Source of the DNA: Fluviirhizobium alvei
GTDB taxonomy: Bacteria > Pseudomonadota > Alphaproteobacteria > Rhizobiales > Rhizobiaceae
DNA length: 64,000 nt
Direction: 5' to 3'
Assembly (NCBI RefSeq): GCF_030551875.1
Contig: NZ_JAUOZU010000018.1
Coordinates: 62,001-126,000, forward strand
The notes under the pieces were generated by a model that saw only the letters and a program-made list of their open reading frames with translations, did not search any database and was not told the origin of the DNA. The position numbers and the translations under genes were made by a program. The stretch's first letter is position 1; every line of letters begins with the position of its first letter. Positions 18,422 to 43,055 of the stretch are shown in pieces.

Positions 18422-19501
18422 TCAATAGCCGGCCTTGATCTTCTCGAATTCGGCGATCATCTTTTCGCGGAGCGCGATTGGCATCGGCGACTGGAAGAGC
18501 GTGTTGTCGACGAACTTGTCGATGTTGTCGTAGCCCTTTGCCTTCAGGATGGCGGGATCGACCGCGGCCATGCCCTTGCCGTTGGCATGGCCGTAGCCCC
18601 AGGAATCCACCATATAGGTGGCAATGTCCGGGTTGGAGATCGCGTTGAGGAAGTCATAGGCGGTTTCGTCGGTGGCGCTGCTGTCCTTGAGGCGCACATA
18701 GCCGCAGACCCAGGTCGAATGGCCTTCTGCGGTGTCCTTTTTCATGGTGACGGGAATATTGTCCTTTTGCAGCGTCGTTCCGGTCTCGTTCCAGCCCCAG
18801 GCCAGATCCACTTCGCCCGACGCCATCGCCTGGCTGAGATCGGTGTTTTCCGTCCAGTAGAGCCGGACATTCTTGTGCACCTCGCGCAGGAAGGCCGAGG
18901 CCTCGGCGAATTGTGCGTCGGTCATTTTCGTCCAGTCCTTGAGGCCGATCGCGAGGCTCGCAAGGGCATAGGCATCATCGACATTGTCGCCGATCGATAC
19001 CCGATCCTTGAATTTGGGATCGGCGAAGGCTTTCAGTGACGCGACCTCGGCATCCGTGACCTTGTCGCTACGATAGATGGCAAGCGTATTGCCCCATTCG
19101 AAGGGCAGGAACCAGGCCTTGCCATCCGATGACGTCATGAGGTTGTTCATCTTGGCAATGCCCGGCAGAACATCCTTCCAGTTGGTCAGTTTGGCGGGAT
19201 CAAGTTCCTGCAGCAGGCCGGCCTCACGCCATTTCACAACGCTCTGCGAACAGGGGTGGGCGAGATCGGCCTTGAAGCCGGAGCGCAATTTCTGGAACGC
19301 TTCCTCTTCATCGCCGAAGAAGCTGAAATCCGGCTCGCTGCCATGTTTGGCGGTATAGGCGGGATGGAAGGCCGGATCCTCGTAGCCCGACCAGTCGAAG
19401 ATGGTCAGGTCGGCGGCCGAGGCTGCTGTTGGGCCAAACAGGGCCAAGGTCGAGAGGCAGACGGATGCAAAGAGGGTTCGGGTCCGGTTCGGCTTTGTCA
19501 T
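18422..19501 (-). CDS. PotD-like periplasmic substrate-binding protein
   Basis: The 359-residue protein has a signal peptide (TLFASVCLSTLALFGPTAASA) and the spermidine/putrescine-binding PotD/PotF fold (ADLTIFDWSGYEDP, EEEAFQKLRSGFKADLAHPC, MASGEVDLAWGWNETG, YDFLNAISNPDIATYMVDSW). An AAGGAG site precedes the ATG. It is the last gene of a methyltransferase-TetR-binding protein operon and has no permease next to it. A PotABC set without a binding protein lies at 36.9-39.8 kb, and an operator-like motif is shared between the two loci, so they may form one importer. The ligand is probably a cationic amine; betaines are as likely as polyamines. Confidence 0.85.
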   Translation of the reverse strand: MTKPNRTRTLFASVCLSTLALFGPTAASAADLTIFDWSGYEDPAFHPAYTAKHGSEPDFSFFGDEEEAFQKLRSGFKADLAHPCSQSVVKWREAGLLQELDPAKLTNWKDVLPGIAKMNNLMTSSDGKAWFLPFEWGNTLAIYRSDKVTDAEVASLKAFADPKFKDRVSIGDNVDDAYALASLAIGLKDWTKMTDAQFAEASAFLREVHKNVRLYWTENTDLSQAMASGEVDLAWGWNETGTTLQKDNIPVTMKKDTAEGHSTWVCGYVRLKDSSATDETAYDFLNAISNPDIATYMVDSWGYGHANGKGMAAVDPAILKAKGYDNIDKFVDNTLFQSPMPIALREKMIAEFEKIKAGY

Positions 19502-19525
19502 GCACTCTCTCCTTTTCAGCTTTTT

Positions 19526-20224
19526 CTAGCGCGGCTTTGGCCCGCCTGGTTCGATATGTTTCGGGAACAGGGCAACGAGATTGGCGATGGCGGCCGCATG
19601 CGCCGTCTCGCGCGACAATCCGTCATTCATCATCAGCCGGAACCAGAGGCCTTCGAGTGTGGCGCAAAGGGCCAGCGACGCCGCTTCCGGATCGTAATCA
19701 TATCCGGCTTCGGCCTTCATCTCGGCGCAGAGATTTTCGAATGTTTCCTGGTATTTGAGATCACGGGCGCCGCAGAGCGCCTGATAGGTGGGACGCGACT
19801 TGGCTTCACCCCAGAAGGCGCACCAGGCTGCGAGCTTGCGCTTGGTGCAGATGCGACGATCGAAATCGGCGGCAACCAGCGCCCAGATCTTGCTCGCCGG
19901 GTCGGCTGCCGCTTTGGAGAGGGCAGCGTTCCAATGGTTGGCATATTCGTCTGCCATGGATTGCAGGGTCGCAATCAGCAGGTTTTCCTTGCTCTCGAAA
20001 TGGAAATTGACGATGCCGCGGGAAAGCCCGGCACCATCGGCCACATTCGCGAGCGTGGTTTCTGCATAGCCGCGTTTGGCGAGCGAATCGATCGTTGCCT
20101 CGATCAGTTGCTGCTGACGTGTTTCCTTGGAAGCCTTGCGGCTCTTCTTGTCATTCTCGATTGCCCGCGCGGTGCCCATACTGGCCGCCATCTCCCTGGT
20201 CTCTCGGGCAAGCACCATAGCCAT
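19526..20224 (-). CDS. TetR-family regulator resembling BetI
   Basis: The chosen ATG at 20224 lies one base after the methyltransferase stop (TGAGATG), implying translational coupling; it gives 232 residues. The helix-turn-helix is TLANVADGAGLSRGIVNFHF, preceded by QQQLIEATIDSLAKRGYAET. The C-terminal part (LAAWCAFWGEAKSRPTYQ, GLWFRLMMNDGLSRE) resembles BetI, the choline-responsive repressor. The gene is in an operon with a PotD-like protein. A TTGAAYGRATATTCAR motif upstream of this operon recurs at two other amine loci in the window, so this protein is the best candidate for the factor that binds it. Confidence 0.87.
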   Translation of the reverse strand: MAMVLARETREMAASMGTARAIENDKKSRKASKETRQQQLIEATIDSLAKRGYAETTLANVADGAGLSRGIVNFHFESKENLLIATLQSMADEYANHWNAALSKAAADPASKIWALVAADFDRRICTKRKLAAWCAFWGEAKSRPTYQALCGARDLKYQETFENLCAEMKAEAGYDYDPEAASLALCATLEGLWFRLMMNDGLSRETAHAAAIANLVALFPKHIEPGGPKPR

Positions 20225-20225
20225 C

Positions 20226-21023
20226 TCAGCCTGCCCCTGGTTTGGTTGCGGCCAAGTGAGTGGGGCAATGTTCGCCGCTGTCAAGGACCTTTTGCATGGC
20301 CGTCCAGGTGCGGATATTCTTGTCAATGAAGGCGGGGCTGGTCAGGGCGACGGCCTGATCGTAGAGCGGACCCGTCAGCTGGGCGAGTTCGCCAGCGGCT
20401 TCCTTGCGGTACCATTCGTTGCGACTTTCGGTCCTGATGTCGACAAATCCCGCTTTCGCCATCGCCTGTCGATAGCGGGCGGGCGATGCCATGCCGAAGC
20501 TCAATCCTTCCGCCTCGATATAATTGAGCATGTCCTGCGAGGGCGGTTCGTCGTGGCCGATCAGCCAATCGGAGGCGGCAAAACGACCGCCGGGTTTGAG
20601 CACCCGGAAGATTTCGGCAAAGACGGCGTCCTTGTCGGGAACATGCACCATCGCATCCTTGGAGAAGACGAGGTCGAATTCACCATCGTCGAAGGGCAGA
20701 CGGCCCGGAGCAGCCTGAACGAAATCGACGCGATCGGACAGGCCCGCCTTCGCGGCACGTTCGCGGGCCCGTTCGATCACCGGTCTTTCCACATCAAAGC
20801 CTGTCATGTGACGCGGTGAAAAGCGCTCGGCGATGAAGAGGGTGATGCCGCCCGAGCCGCAACCGAGATCAAGTACGCGCAAACCGGCAAGATCGATGCC
20901 ATGGAGGATGCGTTCCACTTCCGAAGGCCCGCCCGGCGACAGATATCCATCGCCCCAGATCAGCTCCAGAAAGCGCATATGTTCGTCGTCATATTCGGCG
21001 TCACGCTGCATTTCCGCTGTCAT
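20226..21023 (-). CDS. SAM-dependent class I methyltransferase
   Basis: The start at 21023 (MTAEMQRDAEYDDEHMRFLE) is preferred because the frame upstream crosses the operator-like motif at 21104-21119. The 265-residue product has motif I (LRVLDLGCGSGGITLFIA), an acidic residue after strand 2 (MTGFDVERPVIE), DLVFSKDAMVHVPDKDAVFA and VLKPGGRFAASDW. It resembles phosphoethanolamine/sarcosine-type N-methyltransferases and methyltransferase type 11 proteins, but the acceptor cannot be told. It heads the operon with the TetR regulator and PotD-like protein and is divergent from the FAD oxidoreductases. Its role in an otherwise catabolic cluster is unclear. Confidence 0.83.
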   Translation of the reverse strand: MTAEMQRDAEYDDEHMRFLELIWGDGYLSPGGPSEVERILHGIDLAGLRVLDLGCGSGGITLFIAERFSPRHMTGFDVERPVIERARERAAKAGLSDRVDFVQAAPGRLPFDDGEFDLVFSKDAMVHVPDKDAVFAEIFRVLKPGGRFAASDWLIGHDEPPSQDMLNYIEAEGLSFGMASPARYRQAMAKAGFVDIRTESRNEWYRKEAAGELAQLTGPLYDQAVALTSPAFIDKNIRTWTAMQKVLDSGEHCPTHLAATKPGAG

Positions 21024-21103: not shown

Positions 21104-21119
21104 CTGAATATTCATTCAA
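21104..21119. promoter_or_regulatory. Operator-like motif, copy 1 (TTGAAYGRATATTCAR)
   Basis: Read on the minus strand it is TTGAATGAATATTCAG. It sits in the divergent region between the methyltransferase (start 21023) and the first FAD oxidoreductase (start 21180). The same 16-bp pattern recurs at 39890-39905 and 43073-43088, each time upstream of an amine-related gene. The partial dyad TTGAA...TTCA suits a TetR dimer. Binding by the TetR gene at 19526-20224 is inferred. Confidence 0.65.
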
Positions 21120-21179: not shown

Positions 21180-22799
21180 ATGAAGCGGTACGACGCGGTG
21201 ATCATCGGGGGTGGCCACAATGGCCTGGTAACGGCCGGCTATCTGCAGCGCGCTGGGCTGGATGTCGTTGTTGTGGAAAAGAACCCCTGGGTTGGTGGGG
21301 CTGCGACCAGCCGCGAACTGACGCCGGGCGTTGCCTATTCCAACTGTTCCTATGTCTGCTCGCTGTTCCGGCCGGAGATCATGCGCGATCTCGAACTGCC
21401 GCGGCATGGGCTGCAGATCGTCGCCTATGAAGGCGGTGCGGTGATGACGCGGGAAGGCGGCTATCTCGCATCCTATCGCGACCACGACCGGCATCGGCGT
21501 GAATTCGCCCGTTATTCTGCCCGCGATGCGGAAGCCTATGAGCGCTATGCCCGCGATGTGACGCGGCAGTGCCGCCTGATCCAGCCCTTCCTCCTGCGCA
21601 CCGCTCCGGATCCCTTCTCCTTCAAGCCGCGCGACCTTTCGGAAATGCTCTTCCTGGCCCGCAAGTTCGGCGAGTTCAGCCCGAGCCAATTGGCCGAGAC
21701 GCTGCGGTTCTGGACCATGTCGATTTCGGATTTTCTCGACGAGTATTTCGAGACCGAGGTCATCAAGGCCTATCTGGCGCTGTCCGGCATCATCGGCACG
21801 GCGCTTGGCCCGATGTCGCCGGGCACGGCCTATGTGCTGCTCCACCACTATATGGGCGAGGTTGACGGTTCCGTCGGCGCCTGGGGCTATGCGCGCGGTG
21901 GCATGGGCGCTGTCACCCAGGCGCTCGCGGCCTCCTTCCGCGCGGCCGGCGGCACCATCCTGACCGAAAGCGAGGTTTCCCAGGTCCTCGTTCGCAATGG
22001 CAAGGCGGAGGGCGTGGTGCTCGCCAATGGCGATGAGGTGCACGGCAATCGCGTCATCTCCAATGCGGATGTTAAGCGGACCTTCCTGAAACTGGTCGAG
22101 GAAAAGGAACTGCCCGACGATTTCGTCCACCGCGTCAAGCATTTCAAGATGCGCGGCTCCTCCGGCAAGGTGAACATCGCGCTCGACGGCCTACCGGAAT
22201 TTCCGGCGTTGCCGGCCGGATCCAGCTGCATCAAGGGCGATCTCCATTTTACCGATACGGTGGAGCGGATCGAGCGCGCCTATGACGACTGGAAGGCGGG
22301 GCGCTGGTCTGCCGATCCGTTCCTTGATGCCATGATTCCGACCACGCTCGATCCGACCATGGCCGAGCCCGGCAAGCATTTCATGAGCTGCTTCGTGCAA
22401 TATTGCCCGCCGAAGGTCGAGGGTCGCGACTGGACCGATGCGGACCGGGATGGTTTTGCCGAGTCCGTCATCAGCCAGATCGCCGAATATTCCCCCGGTT
22501 TCCGCGACCGCATCCTGCATATGGAAGTGCGCACCCCGCGCGAGCTCGAAGCGGAAGTGGGGCTCACCGAGGGCAATATCTTCCAAGGCGAACTGACCTT
22601 CGACCAGTTGCTGTTCAATCGGCCGGTACCGGGCTACGCCCAGTATCGCAGCCCGATCCGCGATCTCTATATCTGCGGTTCGTCCACCCATCCCGGAGGC
22701 GGCGTGATGGGCGCGCCCGGCTACAATGCCGCCGCTGAAATTCTCCGTGACCTCGGCAAATCCCGTCATCACATGAGCCCGGCCCATGACATCCTTTGA
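21180..22799 (+). CDS. FAD-dependent oxidoreductase, phytoene-desaturase/PYROXD2-like (first of pair)
   Basis: The ATG at 21180 follows GGGAGAG; 539 residues. The N-terminal dinucleotide motif is AVIIGGGHNGLVTAGYLQRA with EKNPWVGGAATSRE, and the C-terminal FAD contact is YICGSSTHPGGGVMGAPGYN, as in the COG1233 family (phytoene desaturases, PYROXD2). These enzymes are flavin oxidases/dehydrogenases; carotenoid genes are absent here. The gene overlaps the next by 14 bases and sits in an operon with a GcvT-like folate protein, so oxidation of a C-N bond with transfer of the one-carbon unit is the likely role. That is inferred from context. Confidence 0.85.
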   Translation: MKRYDAVIIGGGHNGLVTAGYLQRAGLDVVVVEKNPWVGGAATSRELTPGVAYSNCSYVCSLFRPEIMRDLELPRHGLQIVAYEGGAVMTREGGYLASYRDHDRHRREFARYSARDAEAYERYARDVTRQCRLIQPFLLRTAPDPFSFKPRDLSEMLFLARKFGEFSPSQLAETLRFWTMSISDFLDEYFETEVIKAYLALSGIIGTALGPMSPGTAYVLLHHYMGEVDGSVGAWGYARGGMGAVTQALAASFRAAGGTILTESEVSQVLVRNGKAEGVVLANGDEVHGNRVISNADVKRTFLKLVEEKELPDDFVHRVKHFKMRGSSGKVNIALDGLPEFPALPAGSSCIKGDLHFTDTVERIERAYDDWKAGRWSADPFLDAMIPTTLDPTMAEPGKHFMSCFVQYCPPKVEGRDWTDADRDGFAESVISQIAEYSPGFRDRILHMEVRTPRELEAEVGLTEGNIFQGELTFDQLLFNRPVPGYAQYRSPIRDLYICGSSTHPGGGVMGAPGYNAAAEILRDLGKSRHHMSPAHDIL

Positions 22800-24345
22800 C
22801 ACGATCATCATTGGCGGCGGCCACAACGGTCTGGTGGCCGCTGGCCTGATGGCGAAGGCAGGCCGCCGTACCCTGCTTCTCGAGGCGTCCGATACGCTCG
22901 GCGGCGCGCTGCGCGATCATGAATTCGCCCCCGGCTTCCGGTCCGGCGGGCTAGTCCACATGCTCAACCGGCTTTCGCGGGAAGCGCTTGGCGATCTTGG
23001 CATCTCCGCCGACAGTTTTGGTTCGGAAAATCTCCCGACCGTGCTGTTGTCGGAGGGAAAGGCGCCCGTCATCCTGCGTGGCGCCTATGGTGCGAGCCTG
23101 GAAGGCATCGATGCTGAAGAAGCAAAGCGCTTTTCGGTGCTTCGGGAGACGCTCCTGCGACAGGCCTCCATCCTCAGGCGGTTTCTGGCAAAAGCGCCGC
23201 CGCGACCGGGCGCGATCGGCCCGATGGAAATGCTTGGTCTCGCCGGCACCGGTTTCGAGCTGATCCGGCATGGGCGGGCACCGGCGCGCGATTTCGCCCG
23301 CATGCTGCTGATGAATGTGACCGACGTTGCCGACGAGTATCTGACCGATGACCGGCTGAAGGGCTTGCTTGCGTTCGATGCAACGCTCGGAATTCACCTC
23401 GGACCTCGATCTCCGACCTCTCTTCTCGGCCTCTACTATCGGCTGACTGGTGAAGCGGCGGGGCTGATTGGGGGCCAGATGGTGCCCAAGGGTGGGTTCC
23501 AGACCCTGACCGGGTCATTGCAAGCGGCCTTTGCCCGCGCCGGCGGATCAGTGCGGCTTTCTGCGCCGGTGGCGCGCATTCTCACGGCGGGTGGCAGGGT
23601 TTCAGGCGTCCGGCTCGAAAATGGTGAAGAGATATTCGCGACCGAATTGATCGCGGCCATTCATCCCGGTTCAGCGCTGCAGGGGTTGCTCGCGCCGGGC
23701 GAAGTCGACACCGGTCTCTCCTCTGCCATCAGAAAAATCCGTAGCAAGGGCAACGTCGCCCGCCTGTCGCTGGCGCTTGATCGTTTGCCGGAGATTGCCG
23801 GCCTCACACCGAATGACCTGCGTGGACGAATGGTGATCGCGCCTTCCGTCAATCAGGTGGAAAATGCCTTCAATCCCGCCAAATACGGTGCGTTTTCGCC
23901 GGATCCCGTTATGGAATTCAGTTTCCCGAGCCTGCACAATCCGCATTTGGCGGCGGGCAACGGAGCCGTGCTTTCCGCACTCGTGCAGTTTGCGCCCTAT
24001 GATCTCAAGGGAGGCTGGGATACCGGGCGGGCAACCTTCCTCGAGAACGTCCTCAAGGTGCTCGAGCGGGCAGTTCCTGGCCTCAGCCAACGGATCGTCG
24101 GGTCCGAACTGCTCGTGCCGCCCGATATCGAGGCGCGCTACCGCATGCCCGGCGGCCATTGGCACCATGGCGAATTGCAGGCCGATCGTATGCTTCTCAA
24201 TCGTCCGGTCTTTGCCCTCTCGGATTATTTCACGCCGATCGACGGACTGTTTCTGGCCAGCGCCGGCTGCCATCCGGGCGGCGGCATTTCCGGTCTTGCC
24301 GGCCGCAATGCCGCGCGTGCAATTCTCAAGCGGAGGCGCTCATGA
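22786..24345 (+). CDS. FAD-dependent oxidoreductase, phytoene-desaturase/PYROXD2-like (second of pair)
   Basis: This 519-residue paralogue of the preceding gene begins 14 bases before that gene ends. FAD motifs are TIIIGGGHNGLVAAGLMAKA, LLEASDTLGGALRDHEFAPG, and the C-terminal LFLASAGCHPGGGISGLAGR. Its stop overlaps the following GcvT-like start as ATGA. Two similar oxidoreductases in tandem could form a heterodimer, or could carry out two successive dealkylations of the same amine. Neither has a fused folate domain, unlike the dimethylglycine dehydrogenase-like proteins at 47-52 kb. Confidence 0.85.
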   Translation: MTSFDTIIIGGGHNGLVAAGLMAKAGRRTLLLEASDTLGGALRDHEFAPGFRSGGLVHMLNRLSREALGDLGISADSFGSENLPTVLLSEGKAPVILRGAYGASLEGIDAEEAKRFSVLRETLLRQASILRRFLAKAPPRPGAIGPMEMLGLAGTGFELIRHGRAPARDFARMLLMNVTDVADEYLTDDRLKGLLAFDATLGIHLGPRSPTSLLGLYYRLTGEAAGLIGGQMVPKGGFQTLTGSLQAAFARAGGSVRLSAPVARILTAGGRVSGVRLENGEEIFATELIAAIHPGSALQGLLAPGEVDTGLSSAIRKIRSKGNVARLSLALDRLPEIAGLTPNDLRGRMVIAPSVNQVENAFNPAKYGAFSPDPVMEFSFPSLHNPHLAAGNGAVLSALVQFAPYDLKGGWDTGRATFLENVLKVLERAVPGLSQRIVGSELLVPPDIEARYRMPGGHWHHGELQADRMLLNRPVFALSDYFTPIDGLFLASAGCHPGGGISGLAGRNAARAILKRRRS

Positions 24346-25571
24346 TCCCGACCGCACGATCCCGCAATCTTGCGGCCATCCAGCATGGCCATATCGGCGA
24401 GGAGCTTCGCCAGACGCCGTTCCATCCGCGACTGGAAGCGCTTGCGCATGCCAATGACTGGTATGCCTGGTCCGGCTTCAAGGCACCGCATTCGCTCTAC
24501 GACGAGGAGCTCGAATATTTCGCCATCCGTTCGACGGCGGCCCTCTTCGATATTTCACCGATGACGAAGTATCGCATCGAGGGGCCGGGGGCCGAAGCCT
24601 TCCTCAATCGGCTGACGCTCCGCGATGTCCGCAAGCTCGCGCCCGGTCGCGTCCACTATACCGCCTGGTGCGACGATGAGGGCCATGTTCTGGATGATGG
24701 CACGCTTTTCCGGCTGGCGCCGGACCGGTTCCGGCTCTGCTCGCAGGAACGGCATCTACCATGGCTGCTCGATAGCGCAGTGGGGTTCGATGTCCGCATC
24801 ACCGATGAAACGGAGGCTGTTGCGGGGCTCGCGCTGCAGGGGCCCTGTGCCTATGCGGTTCTCAGGGATGCCGGTTTCGATGGCGTCGAAAAGCTGCGGC
24901 CATTCCAGCTGGCGGATTTTCCGCATGCAGCGGGAACCGTGACGATCTCGCGGACCGGCTTTACCGGCGATCTCGGCTACGAACTGTTCGTGTCTGCCGA
25001 TCTGGCCTTGTCTCTCTGGGACCGGATCTGGCAGAGCGGCCAGCGCAATCGCCTGAGAGCGATCGGCTATTCGGCCCTCAACCGGGCCCGGATCGAGGCG
25101 GGTTTCATTGTCGCCAACGCCGATTTTGTCACTGCCGAGACGGCCTTGCGCGAGGATCGGTTGCGGTTGCCCGACGAGATCGGGCTCGACTGGATGGTCG
25201 ATCTCGAAAAGCCGAATTTCAATGGTCGCCATGCCATGATGGAGGCGCGCCGGACCGGGTCTCTCCGCCATGTTCTCGTCGGACTGGAGGTCGACGGCAA
25301 TGTCGCAGGCCCGCTGTCGCTGATTTATCATCGCCAGAAGCGGGAGGTGGGGATAGTGACGGCTGCCACCTGGTCGCCCATCCTCAAGAAATCGATTGCG
25401 ATTGCCAGCCTGTCGCGTCCTTTCGGTATCAGCCGCAATGATGATCTGTGGGTCGAGATCTATGTGTTGCGCGAGCTTCAGTACCAGAAACTGATGAAGC
25501 GGGTTCGGATTGTGCCGCGGCCGTTCCTGAAACTCGACCGGCGCGGCGCCAATCCGCCAGGGTTGCTCTGA
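24342..25571 (+). CDS. GcvT-like aminomethyltransferase-family protein
   Basis: The start at 24342 overlaps the previous stop (ATGA) and gives 409 residues. The fold is GcvT/YgfZ: EYFAIRSTAALFDISPMTKY, VHYTAWCDDEGHVLDDGTLF with the folate-site Asp pair, SRTGFTGDLGYELFVSADLA, and the C-terminal barrel (LVGLEVDGNVAGP...VGIVTAATWSPILKKSIAIA). GcvT proteins bind tetrahydrofolate and capture a methylene group released from an amine. No other glycine-cleavage genes are near, so it is a stand-alone partner of the two FAD oxidoreductases. Together they look like a split version of the fused FAD-GcvT dimethylglycine dehydrogenases. Confidence 0.88.
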   Translation: MIPTARSRNLAAIQHGHIGEELRQTPFHPRLEALAHANDWYAWSGFKAPHSLYDEELEYFAIRSTAALFDISPMTKYRIEGPGAEAFLNRLTLRDVRKLAPGRVHYTAWCDDEGHVLDDGTLFRLAPDRFRLCSQERHLPWLLDSAVGFDVRITDETEAVAGLALQGPCAYAVLRDAGFDGVEKLRPFQLADFPHAAGTVTISRTGFTGDLGYELFVSADLALSLWDRIWQSGQRNRLRAIGYSALNRARIEAGFIVANADFVTAETALREDRLRLPDEIGLDWMVDLEKPNFNGRHAMMEARRTGSLRHVLVGLEVDGNVAGPLSLIYHRQKREVGIVTAATWSPILKKSIAIASLSRPFGISRNDDLWVEIYVLRELQYQKLMKRVRIVPRPFLKLDRRGANPPGLL

Positions 25572-25876
25572 TGCCATCGGATCAAGCCATTCCCGGGGCG
25601 GTGGATCCGGAGGAGGTCGCCAACTGGAGGCTTATTCTCACGCCTGCCGGCGAGGAATGGTCCGGACGCGCCCGCTATGCCGCGGCGATGTTTTTCAACC
25701 GCCGCGGCGAGATGCCGCTCGATGTGCTCGAGATCTACCGCATCTGTTCACGCATCGACAACGAAGACGCGATTGATGCGCTCCGGGCCTACAGGATGGG
25801 CGCCGCGTGGATCGAACGCGTCGAGAGGATGCGGTTAGTCTTGGTCGCCCAGCCTGATGGTTCTTCAGGGACTTGA
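25571..25876 (+). CDS. Small protein of unknown function in the FAD/GcvT operon
   Basis: The ATG at 25571 overlaps the GcvT-like stop as TGATG, giving 101 residues. No family was recognised. The sequence is soluble, mostly helical in appearance and rich in Trp/Arg (EEVANWRLILTPAGEEWSGR, MPLDVLEIYRICSRIDNEDA). The overlap shows it belongs to the FAD-FAD-GcvT operon, perhaps as a small subunit comparable in position to the accessory subunits of heteromeric sarcosine oxidase, though no sequence resemblance is claimed. Its end overlaps the convergent DUF1127 gene by 12 bases. Confidence 0.7.
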   Translation: MPSDQAIPGAVDPEEVANWRLILTPAGEEWSGRARYAAAMFFNRRGEMPLDVLEIYRICSRIDNEDAIDALRAYRMGAAWIERVERMRLVLVAQPDGSSGT

Positions 25877-27541: not shown

Positions 27542-27571
27542 TGCCTTCTCCTTTCCGTCATAGACTGATTG

Positions 27572-27588
27572 CATGAAGTTGCACGAAT
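27572..27588 (-). promoter_or_regulatory. DeoR-type operator candidate upstream of the RTX gene
   Basis: CATGAAGTTGCACGAAT is the inverted copy (one mismatch in 17) of 27711-27727 in front of the divergent DeoR gene. It lies about 30 bases upstream of the RTX start codon. The repetition is seen; regulation of the RTX gene by the DeoR protein is inferred. Confidence 0.5.
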
Positions 27589-27727: not shown

Positions 27728-27746
27728 ACTTCGTCAAGGAGGGAAG

Positions 27747-34700: not shown

Positions 34701-34740
34701 TTTGGTTCATACCCTTCAAATTTGTCTGGAAGGGCGCTTT

Positions 34741-34940: not shown

Positions 34941-34955
34941 AAGATCCCCTCCAGA

Positions 34956-35858: not shown

Positions 35859-35956
35859 GGGCCTCTCCCGTTATTCGATTGCGCAATTAAGAGGCAGGTT
35901 TGCTTGCCATGCTTTTCATTATCGGCAATATTTCATACATAATCGGAAAGTGCTGC

Positions 35957-36922
35957 ATGCTGGAATCACAGGACAAGACGGTCGAGATCGACATTCTCGC
36001 CTTCCCGGAAACAACGCTCATACTGCTTGCTGCGGTCATCGAACCCTTGCGCGCTGCAAACCGCATTTCCGGCCAGCCGCTCTATTCCTGGCGGCTTCTG
36101 AGTCCCGATGGTGGGCCAGTGGAAACGACCGCCGGGATCCAGATCCCGGTCGATGGCAGGTTCGAGGCCGACAAGGATTCCCGACCGCTTTTCGTGGTTT
36201 CGAGCTACAACTGGCGTCGCAGTGCGACGACCGCAATGAAAATGGCACTGTCCCGCACCGCCCGCTACCGGTCGCTGATCGTTGGCATCGAATCCGGCAG
36301 TTGGCTGATGGCCGAGGCCGGATTGTTTGCCGATCATCGGGTCACGGTCCATTGGGAGGATAACGAGGAATTCTCGGCACGCTATCCCGCCCTCGATGTC
36401 GTGCGCGAGCGGTTTGTCATCGATCGCCGACGGATGACGACCAGCGGCTCCATTCCGACGCTCGACCTGATGCTTGAACTTGTCCGCCGGCGCCTTGGCT
36501 ATTCGATGGCGCTCGAGGTCGCGCGATCCTTCATCTATGAGCGTGATGGCGGTGGGCGTGACCTGCTGCCGAGCCCTCACAACAGTCCGGGGACCATGGA
36601 TCGCCGTCTGACCGAGGCTGTCCGGCTGATGGAGGAGACTGTCGATCAGCCTCTGTCACTCCAGCGGCTGGCCCGCCGGGCCAAAGTGTCGGCGCGTCAC
36701 CTGCAAAGCCTGTTTGCCGATGCCTTCGGCGTGTCGCCGCATGTTCATTATCTGGCGCTGAGGCTTAACGCGGCGCGCCGAAAGGTCATCGAGACGCGCG
36801 CAACCTTTGCAGAGATCGCGGCGCAGACGGGTTTCAATTCGGCCTCGTCCTTTTCGCGATCCTACCGGACCCAGTTTCGCGAGAGCCCATCGGACACGCG
36901 GAAGCGGCTTCACGGGCGTTGA
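35957..36922 (+). CDS. cdhR: GlxA/CdhR-type AraC regulator of carnitine genes
   Basis: The start at 35957 (MLESQDKTVEIDILAF) gives 321 residues. Residues 10-180 form a DJ-1/PfpI-like sensor domain (LILLAAVIEPLRAANRISGQ, SLIVGIESGSWLMAEAGLFA), and residues 215-315 an AraC DNA-binding domain (SLQRLARRAKVSARHLQSLF, FAEIAAQTGFNSASSFSRSY). This layout is that of GbdR and CdhR, activators of glycine betaine and carnitine catabolism in pseudomonads. The divergent position next to the 3-dehydrocarnitine cleavage enzyme fits a CdhR role. It is convergent with the potA-like gene. Confidence 0.88.
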   Translation: MLESQDKTVEIDILAFPETTLILLAAVIEPLRAANRISGQPLYSWRLLSPDGGPVETTAGIQIPVDGRFEADKDSRPLFVVSSYNWRRSATTAMKMALSRTARYRSLIVGIESGSWLMAEAGLFADHRVTVHWEDNEEFSARYPALDVVRERFVIDRRRMTTSGSIPTLDLMLELVRRRLGYSMALEVARSFIYERDGGGRDLLPSPHNSPGTMDRRLTEAVRLMEETVDQPLSLQRLARRAKVSARHLQSLFADAFGVSPHVHYLALRLNAARRKVIETRATFAEIAAQTGFNSASSFSRSYRTQFRESPSDTRKRLHGR

Positions 36923-36931: not shown

Positions 36932-38041
36932 TCAGGCGACGATTCGTTCGGCAGCCCGATCTTCGCCGAGCAGCACCATGGCGTCGGGGTCGTAGGCAAG
37001 CCGGATCTCGGCGCCGATCGGCAGGTCATCGGCGCCGTAATTGTTGGTTTCGATCATCGACAGCGTGCGCTCCAACCCTTCGACGGCGACCTCGAGATGG
37101 GTCGTTTCGCCGAAATAGGCACGGTTGTGGACCTTGCCGGTCAATTCGTGTTCTGCCGTTTCGCCTTCCCACAGCAAACGCAGACGTTCCGGCCGGATGC
37201 CGATCGTGGCCTGGCTGCCATTGCCCTGGTAGCCGGATGGCTTCTCCATGTTGAGGACACCGAATTTTGCCGTTTCCACCGTCAGACGGTTGCCGTTTTC
37301 GCCCGTGACGCGGGCCGAAAGGAAATTCATGCCGCCGAGAAAGTCGGCCACGCGCCGCGTCAGGGGGCGCTGGTAGATCTCCTTGGGTGTGGCAATCTGG
37401 GCGATCTTGCCATCGAACATCACGGCGATCCGATCGGACAGGGCCAGCGCCTCATACTGGTCATGGGTCACCAGCACGAAGGTGATGCCGACGGCCTTCT
37501 GCAACAGGCGCAGTTCGATCTGCATTTCCTCGCGCAGTTTCTTGTCCAGGGCCGACAAGGGCTCATCGAGCAGCAGGACTTTCGGTTTCATGACGAGCGC
37601 GCGGGCAAGCGCCACACGTTGGCGCTGGCCGCCCGACAGTTCGTTGGGCATGCGCTTGCCGAGATTGCCGAGACGCACCTGCTCGATCGCGGCGCCGACA
37701 CGGGCACGCTCTTCCTCGGTGGAAAGCCGCAGCTTTTTCAGTCCGTAGGCAATGTTTGCTTCGACATTGAGATGCGGAAAGATGGCATAGGACTGGAAGA
37801 CCATGTTGACCGGGCGCTTGTTCGGCGGCGTGCCAGTCATCTCCTGCCCATCGATCCGGATCGTGCCGTCACTGGGCGTCTCGAAACCGGCAATGGAGCG
37901 AAGAAGCGTGGTCTTGCCGCATCCGGAGGGGCCGAGCAGCGAGAAGAATTCTCCCTGGGCGATATCGAGCGAAACCGCGTCGAGGGCTTTATAGATTCCG
38001 TAATGTTTGCTGACGGTATCGATCGAAATCATGGTGGTCAT
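36932..38041 (-). CDS. PotA-like ABC transporter ATP-binding protein
   Basis: The 369-residue protein has Walker A GPSGCGKTTLLRSIAGFE, signature [16 protein letters not shown], Walker B VLLLDEPLSALDKKLREEM and a C-terminal TOBE domain (AEHELTGKVHNRAYFGETTH). It belongs to the spermidine/putrescine (PotA) group. The start at 38041 overlaps the preceding permease stop as ATGA, so potB-potC-potA are translated together. No binding protein is encoded in this operon. The upstream intergenic region contains the shared TTGAAYGRATATTCAR motif. Confidence 0.92.
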   Translation of the reverse strand: MTTMISIDTVSKHYGIYKALDAVSLDIAQGEFFSLLGPSGCGKTTLLRSIAGFETPSDGTIRIDGQEMTGTPPNKRPVNMVFQSYAIFPHLNVEANIAYGLKKLRLSTEEERARVGAAIEQVRLGNLGKRMPNELSGGQRQRVALARALVMKPKVLLLDEPLSALDKKLREEMQIELRLLQKAVGITFVLVTHDQYEALALSDRIAVMFDGKIAQIATPKEIYQRPLTRRVADFLGGMNFLSARVTGENGNRLTVETAKFGVLNMEKPSGYQGNGSQATIGIRPERLRLLWEGETAEHELTGKVHNRAYFGETTHLEVAVEGLERTLSMIETNNYGADDLPIGAEIRLAYDPDAMVLLGEDRAAERIVA

Positions 38042-38856
38042 GTCAGGGCTCCTTCGCTGCCGATCCGGCTTTCGGCGCGGCGGCGGATAATTTCTGCCGT
38101 GGCCAGCAGAATGACTGAAATGGCGAGAATGATGGTGCCGAGGGCCAGCACTCCGGGCAATTTGGCGGCGAACCGTAACTGACCCCAGATATAGACCGGC
38201 AGTGTCGGTTGGGTTCCCGAAAGGAAAAAGGCGAGAATGAACTCGTCGAGCGAAATGGTGAAAGAGACGAGAAGGCTTGAAATGATCGCCGGCGACACAA
38301 CGGGTAACACGACCCGGCGGAAGGTGCCGGCCGCAGTTTCGCCGAGATCGAGCGAGGCTTCTTCAAGCGAACGGTCGAAACCGGAAAAGCCGGATATCAG
38401 CACGCTCATCGCATAGGGCAGACAGAAGACGGTTTGACCTAGAATGACCGAGAGCAGCGAGGTTCCGATGCCGGTCGACAACAGAATGGTCAGAAGCGAT
38501 ACCGCGACGATGATCTCGGGCAGGAAGAGCGGCGCCATGATCAGCCCCGACATCGGTCGCTGGCCGATGAAGCGATGGCGGGTGATGGCACGAGCGGCGA
38601 GGATACCGAGCAAGGTCGACAGCAAAGATACCGAAATGCCGACGATCAGGCTGTTGGTGGCTGCCTGCAGCATCTGCGAATTGCCCCACAGCGAGGCGTA
38701 CCATTTGGTTGTGAAGCCCGCGAGCGGCAGGGTCGGTGCGGCAGCGTTGTTGAAGGAGAATATCGGCAGCAGCAGCACAGGCAGATAGAGAAAGACAAGA
38801 TAGATTCCGACATAGGCCGGCAGAAGTCGTGACGCGTTGCCGATCGTTCCCCGCAT
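38038..38856 (-). CDS. PotC-like ABC transporter permease
   Basis: The ATG at 38856 overlaps the potB-like stop as ATGA (MRGTIGNASRLLPAYVGIYL), giving 272 residues. There are six hydrophobic segments and the EAA loop characteristic of these permeases (SLEEASLDLGETAAGTFRRV...LPVVSPAI). It forms the inner-membrane channel with the PotB-like subunit for import of a cationic amine. The ATGA overlap with the ATPase gene on the other side shows one tightly coupled unit. Confidence 0.92.
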   Translation of the reverse strand: MRGTIGNASRLLPAYVGIYLVFLYLPVLLLPIFSFNNAAAPTLPLAGFTTKWYASLWGNSQMLQAATNSLIVGISVSLLSTLLGILAARAITRHRFIGQRPMSGLIMAPLFLPEIIVAVSLLTILLSTGIGTSLLSVILGQTVFCLPYAMSVLISGFSGFDRSLEEASLDLGETAAGTFRRVVLPVVSPAIISSLLVSFTISLDEFILAFFLSGTQPTLPVYIWGQLRFAAKLPGVLALGTIILAISVILLATAEIIRRRAESRIGSEGALT

Positions 38857-39764
38857 CACCGGATCCTCCGGACCAGGCCGCGGAAGGCCAGCACGCAGAA
38901 GGCCGCGGTCAGCGAGACCACGATCATCGTCGTAACCGACAGGGCCGCGCCCAAGGGCCAGTTGTTGCCCTTGCCGAACTGCGATTCAATGGCAGAGGCG
39001 ATCATGACGCCATCCTTGCCGCCCACCAGTTTCGGCGTGACATAATCGCCGACTGTCGGGATCATTACGATGAGGAAGGCAGAAATCACCCCTGGCATCG
39101 ACAGCGGCAAAGTCACCCGCAGGAAGGAACGGATCGCACCATCGCCGAGATCGCGCGAGGCTTCAACGAGTGAGCGGTCGATTTTCTCAAGCGCCACGAA
39201 GATCGGCAGGATCGCAAAGGCTGCCCAGGAATGGACGAGCGTGATCAGAACCGCATTCGAATTGTAAAGGATAGAGGTCAGCGGCTGGTCGATGATGCCG
39301 ACCGAGAGCAGGCCGGAATTGAGGACGCCCTGATAGCCGAGAATGACCTTCCAGGCCATGACGCGCAGGAGATAGCTGGTCCAGCAGGGCACGGTGACGA
39401 GAAACAGCCACAGGCCTTTTCGACGACCGCCGTGGAAGGAAATGTACCAGGCGATCGGGTAGGAAAAGACGACAGTGGCAAGGCTGACCAGCAGCGAGAT
39501 CCACAACGAACGGCCGAGAAGATCGCGATAGATCGGGTCCGTCAGCGCTCGCACATAATTGGCAAGCGTGAAGGTGCGGTCGATCGTCAGATAATCCTGT
39601 GTCCAGAAAGAATAGAGAAAGACGATCAGGATCGGCAGGGCAAGGAGCGCAAGCGCATAAAGAAAGGTCGGCGAAATCAGAAGCAGGCCGGTGAGAGACC
39701 CGCCCCGAAAGAGGTCCCAGCGGTTTCGGACGCTGATCGCCTCCGCCGCCATCAGATCGGACAC
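38856..39764 (-). CDS. PotB-like ABC transporter permease
   Basis: The 302-residue protein has six predicted membrane segments (SLTGLLLISPTFLYALALLA, WISLLVSLATVVFSYPIAWY) and the EAA loop (SLVEASRDLGDGAIRSFLRV...LPLSMPGV). It is the first gene of the potB-C-A unit and is divergent from the class III aminotransferase. The 210-base divergent region contains an operator-like motif at 39890-39905. The substrate is likely a polyamine- or betaine-like cation, and the PotD-like protein at 18.4-19.5 kb is the only candidate binding partner in the window. Confidence 0.92.
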   Translation of the reverse strand: MSDLMAAEAISVRNRWDLFRGGSLTGLLLISPTFLYALALLALPILIVFLYSFWTQDYLTIDRTFTLANYVRALTDPIYRDLLGRSLWISLLVSLATVVFSYPIAWYISFHGGRRKGLWLFLVTVPCWTSYLLRVMAWKVILGYQGVLNSGLLSVGIIDQPLTSILYNSNAVLITLVHSWAAFAILPIFVALEKIDRSLVEASRDLGDGAIRSFLRVTLPLSMPGVISAFLIVMIPTVGDYVTPKLVGGKDGVMIASAIESQFGKGNNWPLGAALSVTTMIVVSLTAAFCVLAFRGLVRRIR

Positions 39765-39889: not shown

Positions 39890-39905
39890 TTGAACGGATA
39901 TTCAA
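39890..39905. promoter_or_regulatory. Operator-like motif, copy 3 (TTGAAYGRATATTCAR)
   Basis: TTGAACGGATATTCAA on the plus strand is the most symmetric copy: TTGAA and TTCAA arms around six bases. It lies about 70 bases upstream of the aminotransferase start (39975) and about 126 upstream of potB (39764), so it could control both. The other copies are at 21104-21119 and 43073-43088. Confidence 0.68.
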
Positions 39906-39974: not shown

Positions 39975-41387
39975 ATGGCGGCAATACGTGAAGAGGCTGA
40001 TGTCAGTCCGTCGGGCGCCGCTGCAATCGAGGATATTGCGACCCGCCATCTGGTGCAGCCCTGGCCGACCTCGGGTTCGATCGGAGCGGAAGCGCGCGGA
40101 CTGATCCAGAGCGGCGAGGGCATCTACGTGACGGATCACACCGGGCGCCGGCTGATCGATGGTCCTGCCGGCATGTGGTGCGTCAATGTCGGCCATCGCC
40201 GGCCGGAACTGGCGCAGGTTCTCTATGATCAGGCGATGGATCTCTCCTACAACTCACCCTGGTACACGACGAATGCGCCCTCGGCGGTTCTTGCCGAGCG
40301 TCTCGCCGGCCATGCGCCCGAGGGTATGAACCACGTCTTCTATACGACCGGCGGCTCGTCGGCGGTCGAGACCGCGCTGCGTTTCATGCAGTTCTATAAC
40401 AATGTCCGGGGGCGACCGGAAAAGAAACTGATCGTCTCGCGGGAGGGAGCCTATCATGGCTCGACCTATCTTTCCGCTTCGCTCAACGGGCGGCCGCGCG
40501 ATCATGACTGGATGGATTCCGCGAGCCAGCTTGTGCTGAAGCTCTCATCGCCCAATCCGTTCCGGCGGCCATCGGGCGTGAGCGTCGAGGCGTTCTGTGA
40601 CGGTCTGGTCGAGGAGTTCCGCACATTGATCGCAACCACTGGCGCAGAGCGGATCGGCGCCTTCGTTGCCGAGCCGATCCAGGCCTCCGGCGGCGTCATC
40701 GTTCCGCCCGGTGACTATCTCAAGCGCATGCGTGCGCTCTGCACCGAGCATGACATTCTCTATATTTCGGATGAAGTCGTCACCGCCTTCGGGCGGCTCG
40801 GCCAGGTCTTTGCTTCCGATGATGTCTTCGGCATCAAGCCGGACATGATCACCTTCGCGAAGGGCGTGACATCCGGCTATTTTCCGCTCGGCGGTGTGAT
40901 GATTGCGTCGCGGCTCTTTTCCGATCTCAGGCAGTCGAACCATTCGGATGCAATGTTTGCGCATGGTCTGACCTATTCCAGCCATCCGATCGGGTGTGCG
41001 GTCGCGCTCAAGAACCTCGATATTCTGGAAGACGGGCTTCTGGAGCAGGCACGAACGATTTCCGGTCATTTCCAGTCACGGCTAAAGGCGCTCGAGGCGT
41101 TGCCGCTGGTCGGGGAGGTTCGCGGCCTTGGCCTGATGGCCTGCATCGAATGCGTGGCCGACCGGGTTTCCAACAATCCTTTGACGCTCGATCTTGAAGT
41201 CGGAAAGCGGATCGACAAGCATTGCCAGGAAATGGGTCTGCTTGTGCGGCCGCTGATCAACATGTGCGTGATGAGCCCGCCGCTGACGATTTCCGAAAAC
41301 CAGATCGACGAGATGGCAGACATTCTCGATCGCAGCATCCGGCTGACACAGGACGAACTGGTTCGCGAAGGTCTCTGGAAGGGATGA
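39975..41387 (+). CDS. Class III (omega) aminotransferase
   Basis: The start at 39975 follows GAGAGGA; 470 residues. It shows the fold-type I features of class III transaminases: YTTGGSSAVETALRFMQFYN, SREGAYHGSTYLSASLNG, ERIGAFVAEPIQASGGVIVP, LYISDEVVTAFGRLG and the PLP lysine in DMITFAKGVTSGYFPLGG. Members act on the terminal amino group of beta-alanine, GABA, putrescine, taurine and similar compounds, usually with pyruvate. It is divergent from the PotBCA transporter and shares the operator-like motif, so it may deaminate the compound imported and N-demethylated by the other members of that set. The substrate is inferred only. Confidence 0.9.
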   Translation: MAAIREEADVSPSGAAAIEDIATRHLVQPWPTSGSIGAEARGLIQSGEGIYVTDHTGRRLIDGPAGMWCVNVGHRRPELAQVLYDQAMDLSYNSPWYTTNAPSAVLAERLAGHAPEGMNHVFYTTGGSSAVETALRFMQFYNNVRGRPEKKLIVSREGAYHGSTYLSASLNGRPRDHDWMDSASQLVLKLSSPNPFRRPSGVSVEAFCDGLVEEFRTLIATTGAERIGAFVAEPIQASGGVIVPPGDYLKRMRALCTEHDILYISDEVVTAFGRLGQVFASDDVFGIKPDMITFAKGVTSGYFPLGGVMIASRLFSDLRQSNHSDAMFAHGLTYSSHPIGCAVALKNLDILEDGLLEQARTISGHFQSRLKALEALPLVGEVRGLGLMACIECVADRVSNNPLTLDLEVGKRIDKHCQEMGLLVRPLINMCVMSPPLTISENQIDEMADILDRSIRLTQDELVREGLWKG

Positions 41388-41394
41388 GGCAACC

Positions 41395-41763
41395 TCAGCC
41401 TTCGTCGGACGGGTCCATCTTCTCGGAAAGATATTTGCGGATAGCGCTCGGCTGGGCAATATGCCGGCCGAGCGTGACCGCGAAGCTGATCATGACGCCG
41501 AGACCGGCGATCACATAGACGACGGTGAAAAGCTTCGCCATGTCCGATGTGAGTACGAAGCCTTCCGGCGTGATGGTGGCAAGGATCATCGTCGAGCGAT
41601 AGAGAGAATCGACCCAGCTCCAGCCTTCCGCCTGATGATAGAAGAGGGTGCCGCCGAGCAGCACCAGCGCCAGAACGAAGAGCAAGGCGCGAAAATCCGG
41701 GTCTCGAAACCCCCGGATCAGCCCTTTTAAGAGGCGCACCAGCGCAAATCCGAACGAAACCAT
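41395..41763 (-). CDS. Small two-helix ion channel protein with atypical filter
   Basis: A GGAG site supports the ATG at 41763 (MVSFGFALVRLLKGLI), giving 122 residues; the frame is open to an ATG at 41799. Two membrane helices (ALLFVLALVLLGGTLFYH and LFTVVYVIAGLGVMISFAV) flank a pore-like loop (WSWVDSLYRSTMILATITPE). The loop reads TITPEGF where potassium channels have TVGYGD, so ion selectivity is doubtful. It resembles the Ion_trans_2 family of bacterial channels. It is convergent with the aminotransferase and lies 86 bases downstream of the Rieske gene on the same strand. Confidence 0.78.
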   Translation of the reverse strand: MVSFGFALVRLLKGLIRGFRDPDFRALLFVLALVLLGGTLFYHQAEGWSWVDSLYRSTMILATITPEGFVLTSDMAKLFTVVYVIAGLGVMISFAVTLGRHIAQPSAIRKYLSEKMDPSDEG

Positions 41764-41849
41764 CCTGCTCTCCAATCCGTCGATTGCGGTTGGTAGCAAA
41801 CGCTCCGCACTGCCGACAAGTCGGGTGAAGGCTCATCCGACGATTTCGG

Positions 41850-43055
41850 CTAGCCTGATTTCGCCAGCCGCATCCTGTCGTTCAGTGTTGCCATTTCCTT
41901 TTCCTCCGGCGCCTTGTCCAACGTCATCACCGGCAGGACATTGCGCAGATGGTCATGATGGGTGCGGACGCCGTATTCCAGATCCGAGAGGTAGAAGTGG
42001 CTGTAATTCTTCGAGCCCATCGCCTCATTGGACCAGATGGTCAGCTGTACATCCTCGGCCTGGGTATCGCGATCGATACGGGCGGCGAGATAGCGGGCCA
42101 GTCGCTGGCGACGGGTTTCTTCCGGATAGCGATAGACAGCGCCCCGGAGCAGGGTCTTGTCCTTTGCGAGCGGGAACTCCTGATAGAACTGAATTGTTTC
42201 CGGTGTCACCGCAATCACGGTGTTGGGGAAGAGGCCATAGTAGATCCAGGCCTTCTTGAGCTTTTCCGGCAGCCGTTCCGGTTCTTCCGTGATCTTGACA
42301 TACTGGCGCACGCTCCAGCGGCGGCCGGCATGCGGGTTGTAAGTGGCAAATGACCGGCAGAGTCCGTTGACGAACGGCTCGTCATAATAGGTCGAACCAT
42401 AGAGATCCTGCAGCGCCGGATGCGCCATGGCAACGTGATAGCCCTCATTGTCGACATCGCGCACCGATTTCCAGTTGACCGGCGACAGTTGCGTCCAGGT
42501 TCCGGCAGTTGGGATTGCGATCTCCGGCTTGTAATGGGCCAGTTCCTCGGCAAAGGGCGCCATGGTTTCGGCAATGCTCGCCTGCGGTCCCTTTTCGAAA
42601 CGGATGAAGACGAAGCCCATCCAGACCTCGCAATCGATCTCGGTCAGGCCGAAGGCTTTCTTGTCGAGCGGCGGGAAACTGTCGGGCCGGGCCGGACCGC
42701 GCAGGGTTCCGTCAAGATTATAGACCCAGCCATGGAAGGGACAGACCAGCGCATTGCGGCAGGCGCCCTTCTCGTCCGCCACCAAGCGGGAGCCGCGATG
42801 TTTGCAGATGTTGTGGAAGGCGCGGACAACATGATCCTGTCCGCGCAGGATCAAAGCCCGTTCGCCGACGATATCCAGAGAAAGGTAATTTCCCGGCTCG
42901 GGCAGATCGGACACATGGCAGGCGATCTGCCAATGTTCGCGAAAAATATGCTGCTTCTCGAGCTCGAAAAGTGCCTCCGAATGGTAGGTCCATCCGGGCA
43001 ATCCGCGTCGATCCCAGTCGGCGGGAATGGTGAGGTCCCTGATCATTTCGTTCAT
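41850..43055 (-). CDS. Rieske non-heme iron oxygenase, quaternary-amine type (alpha subunit)
   Basis: The ATG at 43055 follows GGAGG; 401 residues. The Rieske cluster ligands are in CKHRGSRL and CPFHGW (residues about 85-110). The mononuclear iron site is DNEGYHVAMAH, where the residue three before the first His is Glu rather than the usual Asp, as described for CntA-like oxygenases of quaternary amines. The family includes glycine betaine, proline betaine and carnitine oxygenases. Such enzymes need a flavin/ferredoxin reductase, and none is encoded in the window. A copy of the shared operator-like motif lies 18 bases upstream of the start codon. Confidence 0.88.
   Translation of the reverse strand: MNEMIRDLTIPADWDRRGLPGWTYHSEALFELEKQHIFREHWQIACHVSDLPEPGNYLSLDIVGERALILRGQDHVVRAFHNICKHRGSRLVADEKGACRNALVCPFHGWVYNLDGTLRGPARPDSFPPLDKKAFGLTEIDCEVWMGFVFIRFEKGPQASIAETMAPFAEELAHYKPEIAIPTAGTWTQLSPVNWKSVRDVDNEGYHVAMAHPALQDLYGSTYYDEPFVNGLCRSFATYNPHAGRRWSVRQYVKITEEPERLPEKLKKAWIYYGLFPNTVIAVTPETIQFYQEFPLAKDKTLLRGAVYRYPEETRRQRLARYLAARIDRDTQAEDVQLTIWSNEAMGSKNYSHFYLSDLEYGVRTHHDHLRNVLPVMTLDKAPEEKEMATLNDRMRLAKSG

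Follow-up and report, generated by a model that had tools for sequence, protein, structure and literature searches.

Which compound is handled by a set of importer and catabolic genes that share one promoter palindrome in Fluviirhizobium alvei? The genes lie within a 64,000-nt window (the whole stretch of DNA analyzed; positions 62001–126000 of contig NZ_JAUOZU010000018.1, contig C10 of our analysis) of a 5.2-Mb genome. Profile scans (Pfam and NCBIfam) of the open reading frames (ORFs) in the window confirmed, with their strands, the genes that an initial annotation had proposed from the DNA sequence, i.e., a PotABCD-like importer, a Rieske oxygenase, two flavin adenine dinucleotide (FAD) enzymes, a GcvT-like protein, and a class III aminotransferase; the nearest solved relatives were taken from a sequence search of the Protein Data Bank (PDB). 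We found that this module and its shared operator are a real regulon. Read from sequence, the TetR-controlled regulon may serve the import and oxidative breakdown of a single N-methylated relative of gamma-butyrobetaine or carnitine, probably a zwitterion, a reading to which we assign a probability of roughly one half. The evidence favors a class of compound (carnitine- or butyrobetaine-related betaines) rather than a single compound. The module and its operator copies are as follows:

18422–19501, (−) strand, PotD-like periplasmic substrate-binding protein (NF007048, 73 bits, below the cut-off of 582; PF13416, 64.7 bits)
19526–20179, (−) strand, TetR-family regulator, BetI-like
20226–21023, (−) strand, class I S-adenosylmethionine methyltransferase (PF13847, 95.6 bits; start codon picked by eye)
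21105–21119, (−) strand, operator palindrome between methyltransferase/TetR and FAD1, exact copy
21180–22799, (+) strand, FAD1, CrtI/CrtO-like flavoenzyme (NF045689, 303 bits, below the cut-off of 1000; PF01593, 60 bits)
22786–24345, (+) strand, FAD2, flavoenzyme paralogous to FAD1 (PF01593, 61 bits)
24342–25571, (+) strand, GcvT-like folate-binding protein (nearest solved relative, trimethylamine N-oxide [TMAO] demethylase, 167 bits)
25571–25873, (+) strand, all-helical protein of ~100 amino acids (no Pfam or NCBIfam match)
36932–38041, (−) strand, PotA-like ATPase of the importer (TIGR01187, 355.5 bits versus a cut-off of 355.6)
38038–38859, (−) strand, PotC-like permease (NF007047, 183 bits, below the cut-off of 326)
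38856–39764, (−) strand, PotB-like permease (NF007044, 203 bits, below the cut-off of 348)
39890–39904, (+) strand, operator palindrome between PotB and the aminotransferase, exact copy
39975–41387, (+) strand, class III aminotransferase (nearest solved relative, 3i5t, 453 bits)
41850–43055, (−) strand, Rieske non-heme iron oxygenase alpha subunit (PF00848, 95.8 bits; PF00355, 65.6 bits; nearest solved relative, CntA, 129 bits)
43074–43088, (−) strand, operator palindrome upstream of the Rieske gene, exact copy

FAD1, FAD2, the GcvT-like gene, and the ~100-amino-acid ORF lie head to tail with small overlaps, and the methyltransferase, BetI-like TetR, and PotD-like genes diverge from this run. 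From a second promoter region, PotB, PotC, and PotA are read in one direction and the aminotransferase in the other; the Rieske gene is served by a promoter of its own. The regulator, the methyltransferase, and the ~100-amino-acid ORF had been missed by the initial annotation, as had an RTX-type gene and a DeoR gene described below.

The initial annotation had spoken of a shared motif and given no letters for it; the three module promoters have TTGAAYGNATATTCA in common, in the exact copies listed above. With up to two mismatches allowed, this pattern matched 5 times in the window versus 0.43 expected, and none of 100 shuffles reached 5. Across the whole genome, TGAAYGNATATTCA yielded 4 exact matches and 2 with one mismatch, and the reversed pattern yielded none; the fourth exact copy (contig C4:32187; L004) lies just upstream of a second PotD-like gene that is followed by permease genes. 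In 98 loci (2.27 Mb, window included), TGAAYRNNYRTTCA matched 196 times, with 170 of these palindromes lying no more than 450 bases upstream of a module gene or 200 bases inside one, versus 3 matches in total for six control palindromes in the same loci. By promoter, the palindrome was present in 69 of 81 loci for FAD1 or the methyltransferase, in 62 of 63 for the aminotransferase or PotB, and in 20 of 30 for the Rieske gene. That the shared motif and the clustering are products of chance or hitch-hiking would suit the mere three exact sites in the window, but we consider it extremely improbable, given the shuffles, the placement of the 170 palindromes, and the fact that FAD1 never occurred without the aminotransferase and Rieske genes in 151 genomes. 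The TetR protein presumably binds the palindrome; its scores stayed under the curated cut-offs for BetI repressors (117.6 versus 201.3 bits for TIGR03384 and 110.1 versus 118 for NF001978).

The importer, oxidation, and aminotransferase genes are conserved as a unit under a common operator, and the co-occurrence of its five parts, put forward as a check by the initial annotation, was borne out. Specifically, in a family sample of 151 genomes (109 genera), FAD1 (genome-wide threshold, E ≤1e-200) was present in 31 genomes (25 of the 109 genera), the aminotransferase in 33, and the Rieske gene in 36, and all 31 FAD1 genomes carried both of the others. The unit is widespread: at least 571 public genome stretches contain a FAD1 relative (tblastn E ≤1e-3; some may be distant), and the best 80 of them, hereafter the named loci, belong mostly to Rhizobium, Shinella, Mesorhizobium, and their kin, with FAD1 identities of 79–89%. 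At ≥45% identity, the 80 named loci contain FAD1 (80), FAD2 (79), TetR (79), GcvT (77), PotD (75), the small protein (74), PotA (71), the aminotransferase (70), PotC (70), PotB (69), the methyltransferase (67), and the Rieske gene (29); these counts are lower bounds, since no flank exceeded 10 kb and several contigs stop short of that. The unit is also contiguous in Shinella granuli DSM 18401 (L077). Plasmid records also matched (n = 21), and of four such regions examined, those of Shinella zoogloeoides and Rhizobium sp. SL42 carried the unit and those of Fuscovulum ytuae and Parasedimentitalea marina carried variants of it. In the Fuscovulum variant (L068:26647–29098), DMSP-lyase-family and Amidohydro_3 proteins follow the importer genes.

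In an order-level sample of 199 genomes, we mapped 13 relatives with FAD1 at ≥60% identity. The unit was contiguous, with no carnitine-cluster match in 40 kb, in G085, G069, and G136 (no methyltransferase match in the first and partial matches only in the other two), and G105 has the same block on a contig that starts just before the aminotransferase, leaving the Rieske gene out of view. In G129 the unit is in a different order and has no small-protein match. In five others (G013, G120, G087, G004, and G186), FAD1-FAD2-GcvT and TetR are retained, with another class III aminotransferase (27–28% identity) and other enzymes as neighbors, and partial sets occur in G037, G009, and G039 (G009 and G037 on short contigs). 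Two variant-locus aminotransferases (L049:12725–14164 and L155:13438–14889, 72% identical to each other) are class III proteins of the GntE/glutamate-semialdehyde-aminomutase-like kind (463 bits; cut-off, 525). Between PotA and PotD in G136 lies a monoamine-oxidase-like flavoenzyme (L046:14572–16008), for which cyclohexylamine oxidase is the nearest solved relative, with monoamine oxidase and putrescine oxidase also matched.

The importer belongs to the same family as the PotABCD polyamine system, as the initial annotation had it, and its ligand site departs from that of Escherichia coli PotD. Across 89 binding-protein sequences (E. coli PotD numbering), the aromatic cage of W34, Y37, W229, and W255 is kept in 89 of 89, and Gln327 in 88 (one gap). 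The acids E36, D168, E171, and D257, which we take to be those of the polyamine site (the roles of the cage residues are likewise assumed), are replaced by G, N, D, and C, respectively, in all 89. Retention of the cage with loss of three of the four acids probably means a ligand with fewer positive charges than a polyamine, and the predicted site suits a mono-cation or zwitterion. Polyamine import was rejected on the fixed changes E36G, D168N, and D257C.

That the Rieske enzyme acts on a quaternary amine, another proposal of the initial annotation, is backed in part. Its nearest solved relative is the carnitine monooxygenase CntA; the Rieske ligands (CxH…CxxH, at 84–108) and the catalytic-domain His pair (NEGYHVAMAH) are kept in 24 orthologs, and the Glu of NEGYH occupies the position of the bridging Glu of CntA. 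Missing from the protein is the Cys-X-X-Cys beside the iron site (EGYHV stands where others have ECYHC), a pair that is unique to some group V Rieske members according to excerpts of PMC10952381. CntA and the stachydrine demethylase Stc2, both of group V, are among its closest solved relatives, and it differs from them in this pair and in a regulon that holds no reductase gene.

Glycine betaine is demethylated by the GbcAB Rieske system and then by dimethylglycine and sarcosine enzymes. The module resembles that route in placing a Rieske enzyme first, followed by flavoenzyme and folate-type steps, and in its BetI-like regulator. It differs in that its Rieske protein fails the NCBIfam equivalog for the glycine betaine monooxygenase GbcA (134.1 versus 670 bits), its flavoenzymes are CrtI/CrtO-like and not of the DAO type, its GcvT protein stands alone, and it has an aminotransferase and a Pot-type importer. 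Elsewhere in the source genome (contigs C12 and C13; L001 and L003), the Rieske catalytic domain was matched in two more proteins (113.5 and 54.4 bits), one of which could be a glycine betaine oxygenase.

Demethylation had also been proposed for the FAD pair and the GcvT-like protein. By its GCV_T domain (PF01571; 190 bits versus a gathering score of 25.6) and its Asp segment, the GcvT-like protein is a predicted member of the folate-dependent GcvT/demethylase-domain family. Most of the protein can be aligned with TMAO demethylase and T-proteins; it keeps the VLDDGT segment, which presumably holds the catalytic Asp and of which DDGT is conserved across 71 orthologs. The FAD fingerprint is present in both FAD1 and FAD2 (for FAD2, in 74 orthologs), and the two score best with CrtI/CrtO and Amino_oxidase models; they are not full DAO-family members like the dimethylglycine and sarcosine enzymes, as PF01266 covers only residues 20–151 of FAD1 and 5–41 of FAD2 (scanned-ORF numbering). 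The predicted structure of FAD1 was unusable (predicted local distance difference test [pLDDT], 48). Like heterotetrameric sarcosine oxidase and TMAO demethylase, the module would couple a demethylase part with a folate domain, and the GcvT-like protein scores with both; unlike in those enzymes, the flavin part and the folate part are on distinct polypeptides from other families.

Given that FAD1 is nearest to carotenoid-type enzymes and that the GcvT-like protein scores with the GcvT-fold demethylase models NF009133 (115 bits) and NF047633 (59 bits; both below cut-off), the flavoenzymes might instead be desaturases or carbon–nitrogen oxidases unrelated to N-methyl groups, with the GcvT-like protein removing O- or S-methyl groups in the manner of DmdA or LigM. 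We regard this as quite improbable, as the Rieske protein resembles quaternary-ammonium enzymes, the regulator is BetI-like, and TMAO demethylase is the best GcvT match. More tentatively than for the overall reading of the regulon, we propose that FAD1-FAD2-GcvT may be a new multi-chain, folate-dependent N-demethylase of two CrtI/CrtO-type flavoproteins, unrelated to dimethylglycine and sarcosine oxidases, within an undescribed aerobic route for carnitine-related betaines that is wired to the carnitine pathway of Rhizobiaceae.

The ~100-amino-acid protein carries the motif WSGRxRYAA…LExYR…RxD, and its AlphaFold2 model (pLDDT, 85.7; all-helical) had no fold match in the PDB (best E, 7). It occurs with TetR and Rieske genes in genomes that have no FAD1 at the locus. 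A role as a subunit of an FAD/GcvT complex, as in the sarcosine oxidase comparison, was rejected, since the protein persists in G208, G252, and G283, which lack FAD1.

The same three genomes bear on the order of reactions. Aminotransferase and Rieske genes without FAD1 occur in G208 and G252, together with TetR, the small protein, and a beta-lactamase-fold hydrolase; the methyltransferase is retained in the G208 locus and has no match in that of G252. At the thresholds used, G283, G285, and G309 have the Rieske gene without FAD1 or the aminotransferase. Specifically, G283 carries the Rieske gene, a second-type class III aminotransferase, TetR, the methyltransferase, and the small protein beside carnitine-cluster genes; in G285 an aminotransferase fragment (73%) adjoins the Rieske gene on a 5.2-kb contig; and G309 has an aminotransferase at 49%. 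A genome-wide search (E ≤1e-200) found no FAD1 in G208, G252, or G283. The FAD1-FAD2-GcvT trio is thus frequent but replaceable, and its absence from these variants speaks against an obligatory step before transamination, unless enzymes elsewhere substitute. The strict sequence of three demethylations followed by transamination, as first annotated, is a possible order, against which stand G208, G252, and G283, which keep Rieske and aminotransferase genes without the trio at the locus.

The aminotransferase exceeds the curated cut-off of NF005447/PRK07036 (694 versus 618 bits), and its TFAKGVTSGY region is conserved in 57 orthologs; the nearest solved structure bears only the name "Aminotransferase." The initial argument that a class III enzyme implies a terminal amino group is no proof, as the fold also holds lyases (e.g., NF049939). 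As a route with no dependence on carnitine metabolism, full demethylation of an omega-betaine (beta-alanine betaine, butyrobetaine, or delta-valerobetaine) with a final transamination by the class III enzyme would make the enzyme set logical, with class III relatives that include beta-alanine and gamma-aminobutyric acid transaminases and with carnitine and butyrobetaine as CntA substrates (excerpts of PMC10952381). It is nonetheless unlikely in our judgment, as it accounts neither for the variants without FAD1-FAD2-GcvT nor for the near nesting of Rieske genomes within those that carry a carnitine-cluster hydratase.

That hydratase belongs to a separate cluster at 28521–36922, between the two halves of the module:

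28521–29306, (−) strand, crotonobetainyl-coenzyme A (CoA) hydratase-like protein
29564–31639, (−) strand, ADP-forming acyl-CoA ligase-like protein (NF045494, 276.5 bits, below the cut-off of 1200)
31827–33050, (−) strand, acyl-CoA dehydrogenase (NF042972, 304 bits, and NF002885 crotonobetainyl-CoA dehydrogenase, 178 bits, both below cut-off)
33210–34700, (−) strand, carnitine 3-dehydrogenase, full-length match
34956–35858, (−) strand, beta-keto acid cleavage enzyme (BKACE)
35900–36922, (+) strand, AraC-family regulator, GbdR/CdhR-like (NF052371, 214 bits, below the cut-off of 480)

A carnitine 3-dehydrogenase over its cut-off (NF005716, 838 versus 592 bits) together with a BKACE (PF05853, 328 bits; cut-off, 24.8) identifies the cluster as one of the carnitine 3-dehydrogenase type; the hydratase falls short of the equivalog cut-off of its best-scoring family (NF002936, 309.8 versus 500 bits). 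The cluster contains no exact copy of the palindrome and no Rieske, FAD-pair, or aminotransferase gene. In the work of Bazire (2019) on Sinorhizobium meliloti, such a gene set reportedly turns butyrobetaine into glycine betaine. The kinds of enzyme are the same as in the butyrobetaine–carnitine pathway of S. meliloti, of which the half from carnitine to glycine betaine is described in excerpts of PMC12482172 (where that work is cited), and in the CdhR-controlled carnitine operon of Pseudomonas aeruginosa, as far as excerpts of PMC5806209 describe it. Butyrobetaine-type compounds were among the substrates first suggested for the module, and this overlooked cluster would handle one such candidate by another route.

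The hydratase (genome-wide sequence match, E ≤1e-95; raw counts with kinship ignored, here and in the odds ratios [ORs]) is present in 75 of the 151 family genomes, including 35 of 36 Rieske-positive versus 40 of 115 Rieske-negative genomes (OR, 66; P = 3e-12) and 30 of 31 genomes with FAD1 versus 45 of 120 without it (OR, 50). A control, 4-hydroxybenzoate hydroxylase (pobA), showed an OR of 1.4 with Rieske (P = 0.43). The module and the carnitine cluster adjoin each other, in an order that varies, in the window itself, in 2 of the 80 named loci (L071 and L093; each cluster gene was found in 2), in G013 (1 of 13 order-level relatives), and in G213 and G283 (2 of 9 chosen). This adjacency is weak evidence, and the genome-wide co-occurrence is the stronger. 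In G251, G339, G298, G271, G201, and G268, a second homologue of urocanate hydratase, with a lower score, is encoded around 15–19 kb away from the hydratase of the carnitine cluster, which is possibly a link to histidine-derived betaines.

The same link favors the main rival to oxidative catabolism, namely a feeder route in which the module would produce gamma-butyrobetaine or carnitine from a precursor (e.g., trimethyllysine or a trimethylated diamine), with the separate CoA pathway leading on to glycine betaine. The aminotransferase would then act on a primary amine present from the start, and the trimethylammonium group would stay intact until later. Such a route fits the near nesting of 35 of 36 Rieske genomes, the cases of adjacency, and the variants that lack FAD1-FAD2-GcvT. 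It also fits G299, the only Rieske-positive family genome without the hydratase, which has a carnitine-dehydrogenase match and an acyl-CoA dehydrogenase side by side; among the 7 module genomes without a hydratase match (6 order-level genomes and G299), all 7 match the carnitine-dehydrogenase model (4 over cut-off) and 5 have the acyl-CoA dehydrogenase. However, this model also scores other dehydrogenases, and the 7 of 7 is a raw count; no acyl-CoA dehydrogenase match was found in G085, which has the full module, or in G120; adjacency within 10 kb is rare; and the demethylation-type trio is left unexplained where present. Taken together, we view a feeder route as doubtful, if still a serious candidate.

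For oxidative catabolism of a carnitine-related betaine, we infer the pairing of regulator and operator, every reaction, the order of reactions, and the substrate. Without substrate, TetR would sit on the palindrome at the three promoters, and with substrate it would leave. The Pot-type ATP-binding cassette system would take up the compound by means of an aromatic cage that has become unsuited to polyamines. Oxidation would begin with the Rieske oxygenase, which most likely removes an N-methyl group from the quaternary nitrogen. The N-methyl groups that remain would be oxidized by FAD1 and FAD2, with the GcvT-like protein handing the one-carbon unit on to tetrahydrofolate, and removal of the nitrogen would fall to the class III aminotransferase.

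Several findings weigh against this scheme. The trio was not found at the G208, G252, and G283 loci (34 kb fetched for G208 and G252), and FAD1 and FAD2 score with the CrtI/CrtO branch, in which we know of no N-demethylase. No reductase partner for the Rieske enzyme was found among the genes of the regulon. The scheme has no place for the methyltransferase or the small helical protein and no need of a monoamine-oxidase-like enzyme, although ORFs that cluster with that protein occur in 46 of 98 loci (one representative profiled). The palindrome is not conserved throughout, since 6 of the 13 order-level relatives, i.e., the distant loci G037, G087, G009, G039, G186, and G129, have no exact copy. 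The link to carnitine is weaker at the order level, with the hydratase in 8 of 14 FAD1 (≥60%) genomes versus 18 of 185 others, and a second control, urocanate hydratase (hutU), was itself weakly associated with Rieske (OR, 9.7; P = 0.01).

The kinds of reaction are known; the literature searched (titles and abstract starts, with few subscription journals) contained no description of the gene set, the operator, or the tie to carnitine-hydratase genomes, and named no substrate for the unit. Homarine is demethylated by Mgd. Its catabolism resembles the proposed role of the module in concerning environmental bacteria and an N-methylated compound. Homarine was set aside as a substrate on this background and on one published statement, that Mgd takes part in homarine catabolism (excerpts of PMC13390433), without gene comparison; PMC9870897 makes no mention of homarine. 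Knowing the substrate would give some ten gene families a function together, would possibly add a new type of N-demethylase, and would show how rhizobia use methylated nitrogen compounds other than glycine betaine, stachydrine, and carnitine.

Other genes flank these two systems in the window. The stretch that separates the module from the carnitine cluster (26243–28502) encodes a protein with RTX calcium-binding repeats and a DeoR regulator, an arrangement that differs from that of L071; a relative of the palindrome with two mismatches lies at 27706–27720, immediately before the DeoR gene. Beside the Rieske gene (43266–46812) are genes for a GcvA-like LysR regulator, a choline-dehydrogenase-like GMC enzyme, and a beta-hydroxyacid dehydrogenase, a trio found at ≥45% identity in only L071, L072, and L073 of the 80 named loci, again beside Rieske. 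Farther on (47073–53722), two tandem DAO+GcvT proteins of the dimethylglycine/sarcosine dehydrogenase type precede a match to the trimethylamine methyltransferase (MttB) model (347 bits, below the cut-off of 525), a set that we presume might serve corrinoid-type demethylation of glycine betaine.

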